Positions 34,390 through 39,894 of a stretch of 64,000 nucleotides of DNA are shown here, in pieces (within the stretch, counting starts at the first letter, position 1; the number at the start of each line of letters is the position of its first letter). Location of the stretch: contig JACDUA010000007.1 of the NCBI GenBank assembly GCA_013519935.1, positions 1-64,000 on the forward strand, in the 5' to 3' direction. A model generated the notes under the pieces. The model searched no databases. It had not been told where the DNA came from and saw only the letters and a list, made by a program, of their open reading frames with translations. The stretch comes from Ectothiorhodospiraceae bacterium WFHF3C12. Lineage in GTDB: Bacteria > Pseudomonadota > Gammaproteobacteria > Nitrococcales > Nitrococcaceae. Both the position numbers and the translations under genes were made by a program.

Positions 34390-35319
34390 TTGGACGACGT
34401 CCTGTTCGTGATCAATCCGCTGGCCGCTAGCGGCCGTGCAGACCGGGTCTGGATGCAGCTCGCGGCGCGTCATCCCGCGCTCCGACGAGCAGCCGTGATC
34501 CGTACCGCCGACCCGATTGCGGCGACCCGGTTGTTGATAGAAAGATTGAAACCTTCAATACGAAGAGTCGTCGCCATTGGCGGCGACGGAACCCTGCATC
34601 ATACGGCAAATGTCCTCCTAAGTCTTCCCGCGCCGGAGAAGCGCTCCCTGGGCCTGGTTCCGGCCGGAACGGGGTCGGACCTGGCACGGGGGCTGCGGCT
34701 GGCCCGGCAGCCGCAGCTGGCATTGGACCGTGCGCTGGACGGGGAGACGGTGGATCTCGACGTGCTCTCGCTAACCCATGGCGACACGCGGCGCTACGCG
34801 GTCAACGTGGCCTCGGCGGGGCTGTCGGTGCCCGTGGTGGCCGCGGTCAGCCAGCGCCGGCGACGCGGGCCGGTGGCTTACTTCCGCGCCGCGCTGGAGG
34901 CGGTGCGTCGCGAAACACCGCCCAACGCGCGGGTTATCGTGGACGGTGAGCCCTGGTACGAAGGCCCCCTGCTTCTACTGGCGCTGGCCAACGGCTGTCG
35001 CTTCGGGCGGGGAATGCGTATCGCGCCGGATGCACGGGCTGACGACGGCCGGCTTCAGGTAGTGCTGGTGGAGCCGGCACCCCTGGCTCGACTGCTGCCC
35101 TGGCTGCCGACGCTCTACGCGGGGTGGCATTACGCCGCGCCCTTCGTCCGTCATCGCGCCGCCCGGACGGTCCGGGTCGAGCCCGTGGACGGGACGCGTT
35201 CGCTCACGGAGGCCGACGGTGACCTCTCCCTGCCGCTGCCGGTGAATGTCAGCGTGGTGCCGGGGGCGCTTCGGCTGCGCGGTCTGACTCCGTCCGCCAC
35301 TGCGCGGCGGCGCCGATGA
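34390..35319 (+). CDS. Diacylglycerol kinase-like lipid kinase (DAGK catalytic domain)
   Basis: VLFVINPLAASGRA, VVAIGGDGTLHHTANVLL, LVPAGTGSDLARGLRL; TTG start with GGAGG RBS. Confidence 0.9.
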   Translation: MDDVLFVINPLAASGRADRVWMQLAARHPALRRAAVIRTADPIAATRLLIERLKPSIRRVVAIGGDGTLHHTANVLLSLPAPEKRSLGLVPAGTGSDLARGLRLARQPQLALDRALDGETVDLDVLSLTHGDTRRYAVNVASAGLSVPVVAAVSQRRRRGPVAYFRAALEAVRRETPPNARVIVDGEPWYEGPLLLLALANGCRFGRGMRIAPDARADDGRLQVVLVEPAPLARLLPWLPTLYAGWHYAAPFVRHRAARTVRVEPVDGTRSLTEADGDLSLPLPVNVSVVPGALRLRGLTPSATARRRR

Positions 35320-36082
35320 GCGAGCGGAACAGCGCCCGCTGTTCGGGTCGCTGGGGCAGATATTCCGGGTGCCACTGAACGCCGACGACCAGCCGCGCCG
35401 CGGTATGCTCCACGCCCTGGATCACCCCTGAACGCTCATGGGCGACCGCGCGGATCGCCGTGCCCGGCGCCTTGATGGCCTGGCGGTGCATGGAGTTGAC
35501 CTCGCAGTCGGTCACGCCCATGACCTCGGCGAGCCGGCTCCCTTGAGCGATGACCACGTCCTTGTATGGGAGAATCGTATGGGCCTGCGGCGCCTCCCGG
35601 TAGAAGGCGCTGAGCTCCTGGTACAACGATCCACCGCAACGCACGTTAAGCAGCTGCGCGCCGCGGCAAATGCCAAGAGTCGGTATGTCCGCGGCCAGCG
35701 CGGCATCGATGAGCGCCGACTCCAGCTCATCCCGGCCGGCGTCCTTGCGCGGTCCCCGCTTGGTGCTCAATAGCCGGCGGCTGAGATAGATCAGCGGCGC
35801 CAGCAGCAGCGTCAGCAGGAAACGCCCCAATCGCCGCCGGCGCGGCCGCAGTTCCTCGAAAGTGAAATGCTCCTCGGTTTCGCCATAGAGCGTCGGGTCC
35901 ACGTCGGCGCCGCCGCCGATGATCAGGCCGTGGATGCCCTGAAGGCTCCGGGGCCGTTTCGGCGTCACGCGCACCGCCCGGCCGCCGGCCATCGTCACCG
36001 CCAGCCTGGTGGCCCACCAGGCGGCGAGGCCGCCCTGGTCCGGCCCCGTGACCGCGATTACGGGGTGGTTGCGTTCTGCCAT
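35249..36082 (-). CDS. Class-I glutamine amidotransferase-like protein (gamma-glutamyl-GABA hydrolase/C26 type) with hydrophobic insertion
   Basis: GLIIGGGADVDPTLYG, LGICRGAQLLNV (nucleophile Cys), VVGVQWHPEYLP (His/Glu). Confidence 0.9.
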   Translation of the reverse strand: MAERNHPVIAVTGPDQGGLAAWWATRLAVTMAGGRAVRVTPKRPRSLQGIHGLIIGGGADVDPTLYGETEEHFTFEELRPRRRRLGRFLLTLLLAPLIYLSRRLLSTKRGPRKDAGRDELESALIDAALAADIPTLGICRGAQLLNVRCGGSLYQELSAFYREAPQAHTILPYKDVVIAQGSRLAEVMGVTDCEVNSMHRQAIKAPGTAIRAVAHERSGVIQGVEHTAARLVVGVQWHPEYLPQRPEQRALFRSLIGAAAQWRTESDRAAEAPPAPR

Positions 36083-37158
36083 AGGCTCAACTCGTGGGCC
36101 CAGCGCTCGTCGACCCCGGTGAGTGTCTCGCGGTGTTGTGCCAGATAGCGGCGGCCCAGCTCCTCCATGGCCTGCGGGTCGTGGGCCAGCTGCTCCACCG
36201 CCAGCCAACCGCGCCACTCCTCGGCGAGTGTCCAGTCCGGTTCGTCGATGGCGCAGTTGGGCAGCCGGTAGTGGAGCGTCGGCCGCGGACGAACCAGGGT
36301 ATTGGGCGGCAGCTGCCGGAACAGCCAGTCTCCGTCCAGGTGGGCGAACAGCGGGAGCATGTCCAGCGGGCGATTCCGGGTCGGGTTTGCGTCCAGGTAA
36401 TCGCGCATGAGCTGGCGCAGCCCGGGCCGGTAATCCGGATCCACCACCTGGCGTACGTAGGCTTCCGGAAAGTCGTTGATGAACGGTACCACCTGACGGG
36501 CGAAATCGATGCGGCTGCGCACCTTCAGCCAGTCCTCCAGCAGCAGGTAGGCCCGAAGATAGGCCAGGGCGGTCCCGCCGTCCGCGCGGGGCACTTCGGG
36601 ATTGAGATGCAGGCCGAACGCGTAAAGGGGAGAGGCCCGGGTACCGAGGGCGCTGTGCTCGCTCAGGGCGCGGCGGAGCTTCTCCAGCTCGCCGGCCTCG
36701 GTCATCGGCACCGGCGGGCAGGCGATTTCGTGGGGGACCACGGTGCCGGCAATACGCGCGAGGATGTCGTCCAGGCGCAGCTGCCATTCCTGGTCCAGCT
36801 CGAAGCCGAGCTTCTTGAGGTACTCGATGTAGGTGCGGTCCTTGAGCATGGCGGCGTCGATTTCGATGACGAAATCGCCCCACCGGGTCCCGGCCACGCG
36901 GTGCTCGAAATGGCTGTCGGCATAGTGGGTGCCCCCGTAGAGCCCCATGATGATGCGCGCGGCCTGGCCCAGCTCGACCCCGGCGAACTCCAGCTCGACA
37001 CCGAGCCTTCGCACCTCGCCCCGCTCGTTCGTCAGGTGTTCGGGGAGCGGGAACTGCTCATCCTGCTGATCGCGCATCTGGCAAAAGGTCTGGTCTTCGA
37101 GGCGGCTTTCCTCAGTGGATTGGGTCGTGGCAAGGCCGGGAAAAGAGCATGTCACCAT
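36058..37158 (-). CDS. Amidoligase family protein (glutamine-synthetase-like fold)
   Basis: RRLGVELEFAGVELGQAARIIM, GLHLNPEVP, translationally overlapped with GAT gene (25 nt). Confidence 0.82.
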   Translation of the reverse strand: MVTCSFPGLATTQSTEESRLEDQTFCQMRDQQDEQFPLPEHLTNERGEVRRLGVELEFAGVELGQAARIIMGLYGGTHYADSHFEHRVAGTRWGDFVIEIDAAMLKDRTYIEYLKKLGFELDQEWQLRLDDILARIAGTVVPHEIACPPVPMTEAGELEKLRRALSEHSALGTRASPLYAFGLHLNPEVPRADGGTALAYLRAYLLLEDWLKVRSRIDFARQVVPFINDFPEAYVRQVVDPDYRPGLRQLMRDYLDANPTRNRPLDMLPLFAHLDGDWLFRQLPPNTLVRPRPTLHYRLPNCAIDEPDWTLAEEWRGWLAVEQLAHDPQAMEELGRRYLAQHRETLTGVDERWAHELSLWQNATTP

Positions 37159-37312: not shown

Positions 37313-37831
37313 ATGGAGCTGCAAGGCAAGCGCGTGGCGGTTCTCGCCGAAGATCTCTACCAGGAAATGGAGCTGTGGGTGCCCTATTACCGCCTCAAGG
37401 AGGCGGGAGCGGACGTGGACATCCTCGGAACGGGCAAATCCAGCTACGCCAGCAAGAACGGCTACCCCGTCCATCCGGACGGGAATGTCGCCGATGCCGA
37501 GCCGCGGAACTACCACGGCGTGGTCATTCCGGGCGGCTACGCACCCGACAGGATGCGCGCCCACGAGCCGCTGGTGCGGTTCGTCCGAAGCCTCGCCGAG
37601 CAGGGCGGCATCGTCGCCTGGATCTGTCACGCCGGCTGGGTGGCCGTGTCCGCGAATATTATCCGCGGCAGAGCCGTGACGTCGGTCAAGGCCATCCAGG
37701 ACGATATGCGCAACGCTGGCGGCGAATGGCGCGACGAGCCGCTGGTGCAGGACGGCAACCTCATCAGCAGCCGCGTGCCGTCGGATCTGCCGCTCTTCTG
37801 CCGGGCGTTGGTGGCGGCCCTGGCCAAGTAG
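37313..37831 (+). CDS. DJ-1/PfpI family protein
   Basis: KRVAVLAEDLYQEMELWVPYYRLKEAGADVDILG; VVIPGGYAPD; AWICHAGW (nucleophile elbow). Confidence 0.92.
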   Translation: MELQGKRVAVLAEDLYQEMELWVPYYRLKEAGADVDILGTGKSSYASKNGYPVHPDGNVADAEPRNYHGVVIPGGYAPDRMRAHEPLVRFVRSLAEQGGIVAWICHAGWVAVSANIIRGRAVTSVKAIQDDMRNAGGEWRDEPLVQDGNLISSRVPSDLPLFCRALVAALAK

Positions 37832-37912: not shown

Positions 37913-37995
37913 CGGCGGCTCCGGCAGTGTTCCCCCAGGACGTCCCATTTTTCCGCAGCGGATGCGTTGATCTTGGTTTCGAGGGGAGCACGACC

Positions 37996-39894
37996 ATGAA
38001 AATGACCAGAAAGACGGGCGCTTGGCGGCACCGGGGGGTGCTGACCGGCACGACGCTGTTGTTCTCGCTGGCCCTGGCGGGCTGTGGGGGCGGTTCCGGG
38101 TCCGACGAGAACACGGATAACACCGACAACACGGGCGATACGGAAACCACCTATACCGGCACGGTGGAGGCGCCGTCGGGACAAATCGCGCAGCTGCGCG
38201 AGCCCGGCATGCTGGAACGGCTCGGCGGCTTCGTCATGCCGACATCGGTGGCGGCGATTACCGGTCTCCAGCCGGTTCCCGACGTGGAGGTCGAGCTAGT
38301 CCGGTTGAACTCGGATGGCAGTGTCGCCGAGGTGGTGACCACCGTTACCGCCAATAGCAGCGGTGAGTTCACGCTGAACTCCGAGCTCGCGCCGAATTCC
38401 AACCACATCTTCCGCGTCAGCGCCTCCGGCGGCGCACAGATGCGCGTGCCCATGGCACGAAGCGAGGCGGACATCAATCCCGGCACCGAGATGGTGGTCC
38501 GGGCCATGGAAACCGCCATCAGCAGTGGTGCGACCCTGGACGACTGGACGCCCGAGGAGCTGGACAGCCTGGTGGTACAGGCGGTGGAGTCGGACGTGGA
38601 CCTGTCCAGCTGTAGCGATATCGACAGCTGCGTGACCAGCGCCAGCGATCAGGTTCCCACCGTTGAAGAGGATACCCAGACCCTGGCCGAGAACGACGGG
38701 GTGACGGGGCCGGAGGGCGAGTTCCGGTTCGCCGCGGTGGAGCTGGCGCATTCCCATCCCTTCTGGGAGGTCGGCCACTACTTCACGGAGCTGACCCTGA
38801 GCTTCTCCGGCAGCGAACTCGCCGGCAATACCACGAGTGCCTACGACGACTGGTGGAGGGAGAACACGACGGGGCTTGAGTTCGATACTTCAGCCGACGA
38901 GAGCCTGACCCTCGGCTACAGTCCGGGCGCGGACGGACGGCTGATTTTCAGCGACTCGACGCTCAGCGGCGGTTACAGCGCCGACGGCCAGGTGGCCGCG
39001 ATGCTTATCCGCAGAGCGGATGACTATGACGGAAGCGACTCTATGGAGCATGTCCGTGGATTCGTCCTTGGCGTGAAGGTCCCTTCGTCGGCACCGAGCC
39101 TGAGCGGCGATTACAACATCGTGACCTTCTCGGAGAACACCGGTGCGGTGGCCGCCGACTCCCAGGAGGGCCAGCGGGACTACGAGACCGGCGCGGTCAC
39201 GGCCAGTGTCAGCGGCGGCAACCTGAACCTGGGGGCCAATAGCGGCGAGAGCTCGGACATCGTCTTGCCGGCCGCCGGCTCCGGCGTCACCGGGACCGTC
39301 AATCACGAGTCCGTTTCCGACCCCTCGGAGACCATCGCCTACAGCCTGGGCTCGGACGGCGGCCTCAGTGTGGCCGGCCTCGATGGTCAGGTGACGTCCA
39401 GCGGCGACTTCTTCTACCTGATGGGGCGTAGCGAGCTGTCGGCACCACCCGAGTCGCTGGTGGACATGGTGCTAGCGACGCGTGCGGGCACCGGCATGGA
39501 CGTCAGCAGCCTTCAGGGCACCTATCGCTTCTACGGGGTGGAGGGGCAGTTGTCCGAGAATGAAGACGGCCTGATGTCCATGGTCCTCACGGCCGACTTC
39601 GATGGCAGCGGCAGCCTGGATCTCAGCGGCGTGGAATACGAGAGCGATGTCGACATGATCGATGAGCTCCAGGATGAAGTGTCCACCAGCTCCTTCTCGG
39701 AGAGTGGCATCAGCTATACCGTCAGTGCGTCGGGCGAGGTCTCGCTGGACGGGGGCGGCGCCGTGGGCGCGGTGACGCCGGATGGGGAGGTTATGGTCCT
39801 CATCAGCGCGGGGTCCGAGGACGACGACGGCGACGGCACCGACGACGGCTGGTGGCACGGCGTGCTTGTCGGCTTCAGGGAACCGGCGAACTGA
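37996..39894 (+). CDS. Large acidic secreted lipoprotein, function unknown
   Basis: Signal peptide and lipobox LALAGCGGG; Asp/Glu/Ser/Gly-rich body. Confidence 0.8.
   Translation: MKMTRKTGAWRHRGVLTGTTLLFSLALAGCGGGSGSDENTDNTDNTGDTETTYTGTVEAPSGQIAQLREPGMLERLGGFVMPTSVAAITGLQPVPDVEVELVRLNSDGSVAEVVTTVTANSSGEFTLNSELAPNSNHIFRVSASGGAQMRVPMARSEADINPGTEMVVRAMETAISSGATLDDWTPEELDSLVVQAVESDVDLSSCSDIDSCVTSASDQVPTVEEDTQTLAENDGVTGPEGEFRFAAVELAHSHPFWEVGHYFTELTLSFSGSELAGNTTSAYDDWWRENTTGLEFDTSADESLTLGYSPGADGRLIFSDSTLSGGYSADGQVAAMLIRRADDYDGSDSMEHVRGFVLGVKVPSSAPSLSGDYNIVTFSENTGAVAADSQEGQRDYETGAVTASVSGGNLNLGANSGESSDIVLPAAGSGVTGTVNHESVSDPSETIAYSLGSDGGLSVAGLDGQVTSSGDFFYLMGRSELSAPPESLVDMVLATRAGTGMDVSSLQGTYRFYGVEGQLSENEDGLMSMVLTADFDGSGSLDLSGVEYESDVDMIDELQDEVSTSSFSESGISYTVSASGEVSLDGGGAVGAVTPDGEVMVLISAGSEDDDGDGTDDGWWHGVLVGFREPAN

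Follow-up and report, generated by a model that had tools for sequence, protein, structure and literature searches.

The window, by which we mean the whole 64,000-nucleotide stretch of DNA analysed from Ectothiorhodospiraceae bacterium WFHF3C12, carries on its (-) strand a tightly coupled pair of genes for an Amidoligase_2 protein and a class-I glutamine amidotransferase (GAT)-like protein of the Peptidase_C26 family. The pairing of these two families is an already established theme and the new element is a variant, characteristic of the window's lineage, in which a hydrophobic insert broken by a proline interrupts the GAT. Our preferred interpretation, put forward tentatively and at a little under an even chance of being right, is that the pair consists of a ligase and a gamma-glutamyl or isopeptide hydrolase acting at the inner membrane on a membrane-associated substrate.

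Organisation of the locus

A preliminary description had placed an amidoligase gene and a C26-type GAT gene, overlapping by 25 nt, at 35249-37158. The sequence bears this out, with the amidoligase gene at 36058-37158 and the GAT gene at 35249-36082, both on the (-) strand. The GAT starts at the ATG at 36082, 25 nt inside the amidoligase gene whose stop is at 36058, and the shared segment (36058-36082) is where translational coupling would occur. The mechanical open reading frame 35249-36883 (544 aa) is the GAT frame extended too far upstream. The ligase start at 37158 may likewise be too early since the aligned homologues start near window residue 35, making Met28, with its ATG at 37077, a plausible and probably the true start.

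The two flanking genes described earlier are also present as judged by profile matches. A YegS/DAGK-like lipid kinase gene at 34390-35319 on the (+) strand converges on the pair and its 3' end overlaps the 3' end of the GAT gene, while a PfpI-like gene occupies 37316-37831, also on the (+) strand. As both lie on the strand opposite to the pair, they are outside the operon. Other neighbours in the window are genes for a MetH-like protein, CorA, NlpC/P60 and a putative lipoprotein (37987-39894, (+) strand; weak match to the NCBIfam lipo-invert tail, 25.6 bits versus a cut-off of 37).

Family assignment of the two proteins

The family assignments were upheld by the HMM searches, both proteins scoring above the cut-off. 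The ligase matched PF12224 with 202.7 bits (1.1e-59, cut-off 22) over profile positions 2-244 of 245. This was its sole Pfam match and all 25 of the aligned ligase relatives matched the same family. Residues E55, E57, E99, D101, E144, N186, R261, R292, H296 and R298 were invariant in 25 sequences. These acidic and basic residues are those expected of a glutamine synthetase (GS)-like ATP-dependent ligase and we infer a catalytic role for them. A sequence-profile search for solved structures related to the ligase returned nothing meaningful, and AF2 models made from two-sequence alignments had pLDDT values of 35 and 37 (ligase 37.4).

The GAT matched PF07722 (Peptidase_C26) with 149.8 bits (1.2e-43, cut-off 20.5) and also PF00117 (GATase) with 50.2 bits. 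Its Cys-His-Glu triad, C139/H238/E240, is intact and was invariant in 20 sequences. Its CRGxQ and NSxHxQ motifs are intact as well, and we take these to be associated with gamma-glutamyl hydrolases. The nearest solved structures were 3fij (Lin1909), 6vtv (PuuD) and 7d4r/7d53/7d50, and true glutaminase families scored far below the gamma-glutamyl hydrolase relatives. PHROG 7218 also matched the GAT. The best NCBIfam match was PuuD with 75.4 bits, well under the equivalog cut-off of 266. The window's genome contains a separate PuuD-type C26 gene on another contig (C35:11624-12283) with a stronger score of 217.1 bits and it is therefore unlikely that the GAT of the pair is the polyamine enzyme. 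A second C26-like match lies near this PuuD-type gene (C35:14357-14665).

Conservation of the pair

Relatives were collected from a class sample of 369 genomes, 21 of them positive by PF12224, from the 54 genomes of the order, of which 23 were ligase-positive, and from a phylum sample of 399 genomes with 22 positives. Plasmids were added and a genome-contig scan contributed one locus. The surroundings of each locus were scanned with profiles built on the window ligase and GAT. With L101 removed as a duplicate, its contig being that of L024, the count came to 65 full-length proteobacterial relatives; two divergent class hits (L006 and L034) and one weak hit (L022) stand outside these counts. 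A GAT of the window type was absent from the surroundings of L034.

Conservation in relatives had been named in the preliminary description as one point on which the proposal could fail, and the pair proved strongly conserved. The GAT adjoined the ligase, downstream and on the same strand, in 58 of the 65 loci, a figure which, as the loci were picked by their ligase, gives the frequency of ligase with GAT and not the reverse. The two genes usually overlapped or lay within about 75 nt of each other, as the suggestion of translational coupling would have it. Judged from these loci, the ligase and the GAT are inherited as a unit.

The seven exceptions are solo ligases and group together as one clade on the ligase tree (support 100/100; L026, L027, L029, L030, L051, L134 and L135). 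Several are on plasmids and some of the plasmid-borne genes are near transposases or recombinases. Of two genomes with a solo ligase that were checked, one (G569) had no GAT of the window type genome-wide, the best score being 28 bits, and in the other (G497) the best C26 protein was weaker, 106 bits, and encoded on another contig. The motif residues were intact in those solo ligases that were aligned, so across the family at large ligation does not require the GAT.

A hydrophobic insert in the GAT

The GAT of the window's lineage contains an insert of ∼37 residues just past the GGG motif of the presumed oxyanion loop, between GGGADVDPTLYGE and DxxRDxLE, which makes it longer than typical relatives. 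The spacing from GGGxD to RDxLE is 66 residues in the window and 62-66 in 25 relatives, versus 29 in nearly all other measurable relatives, and the insert was absent from the other C26 relatives sampled. The insert covers residues from about 68 to 113 (35744-35881, (-) strand).

The insert holds an uncharged stretch of 13-14 residues with an invariant proline and arginines on either side (window: RFLLTLLLAPLIYLSRRLLS). Its core, R-F-L-L-T-L-L-L-A-P-L-I-Y-L-S-R-R-L-L in the window and FLLxLLLFPLIWLLRRLLS as a consensus, has an arginine-rich N-terminal side. Residues 89-101 were uncharged and P96 and R102 invariant in 25 of 25 sequences, and the position of R103 was basic in 92% of them. No other 13-mer of the GAT was as hydrophobic as the core in any of the 25. 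Mean pair identity was 57% for residues 86-106, against 60-65% for the catalytic domain and 36-37% for the two linkers. The core is thus conserved at close to the level of the catalytic domain while the linkers are far more variable, indicating selection on the core rather than a loop that expanded at random.

The 25 carriers of the insert form one clade both on the amidoligase tree (100/98) and on the GAT tree calculated with the insert cut out (support 96), hence a single origin. Of the 23 genomes of the order that bear a ligase, 22 had the insert, and the 31 without a ligase all lacked it; among the 369 genomes of the class sample it occurred in 5, always beside the ligase. The one ligase-bearing genome of the order without the insert (G001) is a member of the same family as the window. 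Its pair falls in the sister clade that lacks the insert and is followed closely by a VTT gene, so that the pair there looks to have been acquired horizontally as a unit.

Indicators of a re-entrant helix include positive charges ahead of the hydrophobic stretch and helix breakers within it (PMC6133551), and the insert has both basic residues ahead and a helix breaker inside. A stretch of 13-14 residues is short for a helix spanning the bilayer. The core FLLTLLLAPLIYLSRRLL (residues 88-105; 35768-35821, (-) strand) is accordingly labelled here a predicted anchor of the re-entrant or monotopic type, and its composition suggests that the insert probably parks the GAT on the cell membrane. Since the insert lies only a few residues past the presumed oxyanion-loop GGG, such an anchor would bring the active site up against the surface of the membrane. 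The main alternative is that the hydrophobic stretch could form a subunit interface packing on the ligase. Given that most relatives with a C26 pair lack the insert, membrane docking would not be general among them.

Neighbouring genes in relatives

The preliminary description had taken the DAGK-like and PfpI-like neighbours as a hint of an envelope role. Outside the window, Alkalilimnicola (L024, resampled as L101) alone had a DAGK-like gene adjoining the pair. No PfpI relative was found beside any other pair, though one lay about 2 kb off in L104. As this neighbourhood is not conserved, the argument from it fails, DAGK and PfpI were rejected as functional partners and the DAGK-like kinase is probably outside the system. 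The link to the membrane appears to arise instead from the hydrophobic insert of the GAT and from VTT genes beside relatives that lack the insert.

Such a gene, encoding a VTT/YqaA-like (PF09335) membrane protein, was found downstream on the same strand in 8 of 15 insert-less sister-clade loci. It followed the GAT directly in six (L032, L035, L042, L044, L045 and L047, the last being a weak partial hit), overlapping it by 4 nt in L035, and was about 3 kb away in two (L037 and L038). It was found in none of the 25 insert loci. The comparison of 8/15 with 0/25 has a nominal p of 8e-5, but it does no more than suggest that insert and VTT gene exclude each other, since the carriers of the insert go back to one origin and the VTT set includes the two loci at ∼3 kb and the weak hit. 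DedA-family proteins include undecaprenyl-phosphate flippases (PMC10127716, PMC12893004). This distribution, drawn from few independent events, suggests that the insert branch and the VTT branch may both act at the membrane.

Among the remaining neighbours, a metH-like gene was close to the pair at 11 of the order's loci, which is ordinary synteny. Genes for MetH, a Cys/Met PLP enzyme, an inositol phosphatase, a mechanosensitive channel, a UPF0004/TRAM radical SAM protein and proteasome-family proteins recurred nearby in some relatives; being lineage-specific and functionally mixed, they were read as local synteny. No recurrent third gene pointing to the substrate was found among the loci examined, and no PADLOC model for an anti-phage defence system matched.

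Two further observations concern individual loci. Upstream of the pair, and on the other strand, there is an Anbu-like proteasome-family gene at close range in L108 (4089-4820, (-) strand) and L033 and at 1.5-2.6 kb in L111 and L116; the usual association of Anbu is with other genes of the amidoligase type. Aldehyde dehydrogenase genes occur near the pair in L025, L037, L038 and L047, which may point to the breakdown of amines in certain lineages.

Proposed activity of the pair

In the mechanism that we favour the Amidoligase_2 protein would spend ATP on activating a carboxyl group and then join this group to an amine; the carboxyl concerned is probably the gamma-carboxyl of glutamate or a Glu-like residue. 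The co-translated PuuD/SpuA-type C26 protein would hydrolyse gamma-glutamyl or isopeptide amides via its Cys-His-Glu triad and so remove or edit the modification. In the window's lineage the Pro-broken hydrophobic insert beside the active site would tether the hydrolase to the membrane, and one or more of the substrates would then probably be bound to the membrane or linked to a lipid. A hydrolase is favoured because the nearest relatives of the GAT include gamma-glutamyl hydrolases and because solo ligases need no dedicated GAT. A more far-reaching version of the proposal is that the insert carriers constitute a previously unrecognised, membrane-docked amidoligase/GAT branch, in which the insert makes a GAT-type hydrolase monotopic and the substrate is lipid-linked, while the sister branch uses a DedA/VTT partner. 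We regard this version as possible but on balance doubtful.

The substrate would be named by a proposal that overlaps with the favoured one, namely that the ligase adds unusual isopeptide links to peptidoglycan stem peptides and the GAT is the matching peptidase. Phage cassettes with amidoligases and a GAT have been proposed to act on peptidoglycan (PMC5498523), the match of the GAT to PHROG 7218 is in keeping with this, and membrane docking would suit lipid II. However, the examined neighbours of the chromosomal pair included neither a cyclotransferase nor an ATP-grasp gene, the window ligase matched no phage protein, and the function of the phage cassettes is itself a prediction. Peptidoglycan modification of this kind is judged somewhat unlikely.

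Slightly less probable again, and unlikely overall, is that the GAT is a glutaminase subunit feeding ammonia to the amidoligase, which would then amidate a carboxyl on a precursor linked to the membrane, along the lines of MurT-GatD. The class-I fold assignment and the complete triad are compatible with such a subunit, the gene overlap implies stoichiometric subunits, the two genes are co-inherited, and a precedent exists in MurT-GatD, whose two genes encode proteins that act on precursors of peptidoglycan, presumably while these are attached to lipid (PMC3267633). However, true glutaminases score far lower than the best database and structure relatives of the GAT, which include gamma-glutamyl hydrolases, and a clade of intact-looking solo ligases manages without a dedicated GAT (best score 28 bits in G569). 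MurT and GatD also belong to families other than those of the window pair, and the triad Glu is missing from GatD (PMC3267633).

A soluble shuttle like PuuA/PuuD, in which the ligase caps a small amine, other enzymes act on it, the hydrolase frees the product and the insert is a protein-protein contact, would suit the PuuD-like hydrolase, the aldehyde dehydrogenase genes near the four pairs listed above and the lack of a membrane feature in most relatives, but is improbable given that no aldehyde dehydrogenase or amine oxidase gene adjoins the window pair, that contig C35 carries the better PuuD-type gene, and that the insert core, with 13 uncharged positions in 25 sequences and flanking arginines, is lipid-facing in look.

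A conserved insert docking the GAT on the membrane would narrow the hunt for the substrate, which otherwise takes in every soluble metabolite, to amines and carboxylates of the membrane or linked to lipids.

Comparison with known systems

The preliminary description had presented the pair as an undescribed system, which does not hold for the pair type as such. Amidoligase and GAT modules, including gene pairs in Proteobacteria, were reportedly recognised by Iyer et al. in 2009 (doi 10.1039/b917682a), a study cited by PMC10945688 among others, and plasmid annotations already list the ligase and the GAT as adjacent. A phage version is also known, in cassettes comprising two amidoligases, an ATP-grasp enzyme, a GAT and a gamma-glutamyl cyclotransferase with peptidoglycan as the proposed target (PMC5498523). 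No biochemically characterised Amidoligase_2/GAT pair was found in the searchable papers, and these gave no account of the GAT insert, its clade or the VTT association.

The pairs of PF12224 with a GAT/C26 protein in Proteobacteria share with the window pair the ligase family, the partner family, the gene order and the tight coupling; the GAT of the window's lineage differs from them by its hydrophobic, Pro-broken insert. The phage cassettes (PSA-HP1, RIO-1, phiEco32 and others) likewise encode an amidoligase and a GAT together, but they carry in addition the cyclotransferase, the ATP-grasp enzyme and the second amidoligase, whereas the neighbours in the window include neither a cyclotransferase nor an ATP-grasp gene. 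PuuA-PuuD also combines a ligase of the GS superfamily with a C26 gamma-glutamyl hydrolase, and PuuD is close to the window GAT. However, the window ligase is an Amidoligase_2 protein and not a PuuA of the glutamine-synthetase type, and no genes of the pathway adjoin the pair.

MurT-GatD resembles the window pair in being a two-gene operon of a ligase and a class-I GAT with a presumed lipid-linked substrate. It differs in that its Mur ligase and GATase_3 families were not found in the window pair (PF12224; PF07722 with PF00117), and the triad Glu missing from GatD is present in the window GAT. The closest likeness to the insert is in the monotopic proteins PglC and LpxM, which have a short hydrophobic stretch with an internal proline and flanking basic residues (PMC6133551). 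There is no fold relation to these proteins, and the element in the window interrupts a soluble hydrolase domain midway. A class-I GAT-type hydrolase anchored to the membrane in this way would, if the prediction is correct, be an unusual architecture.
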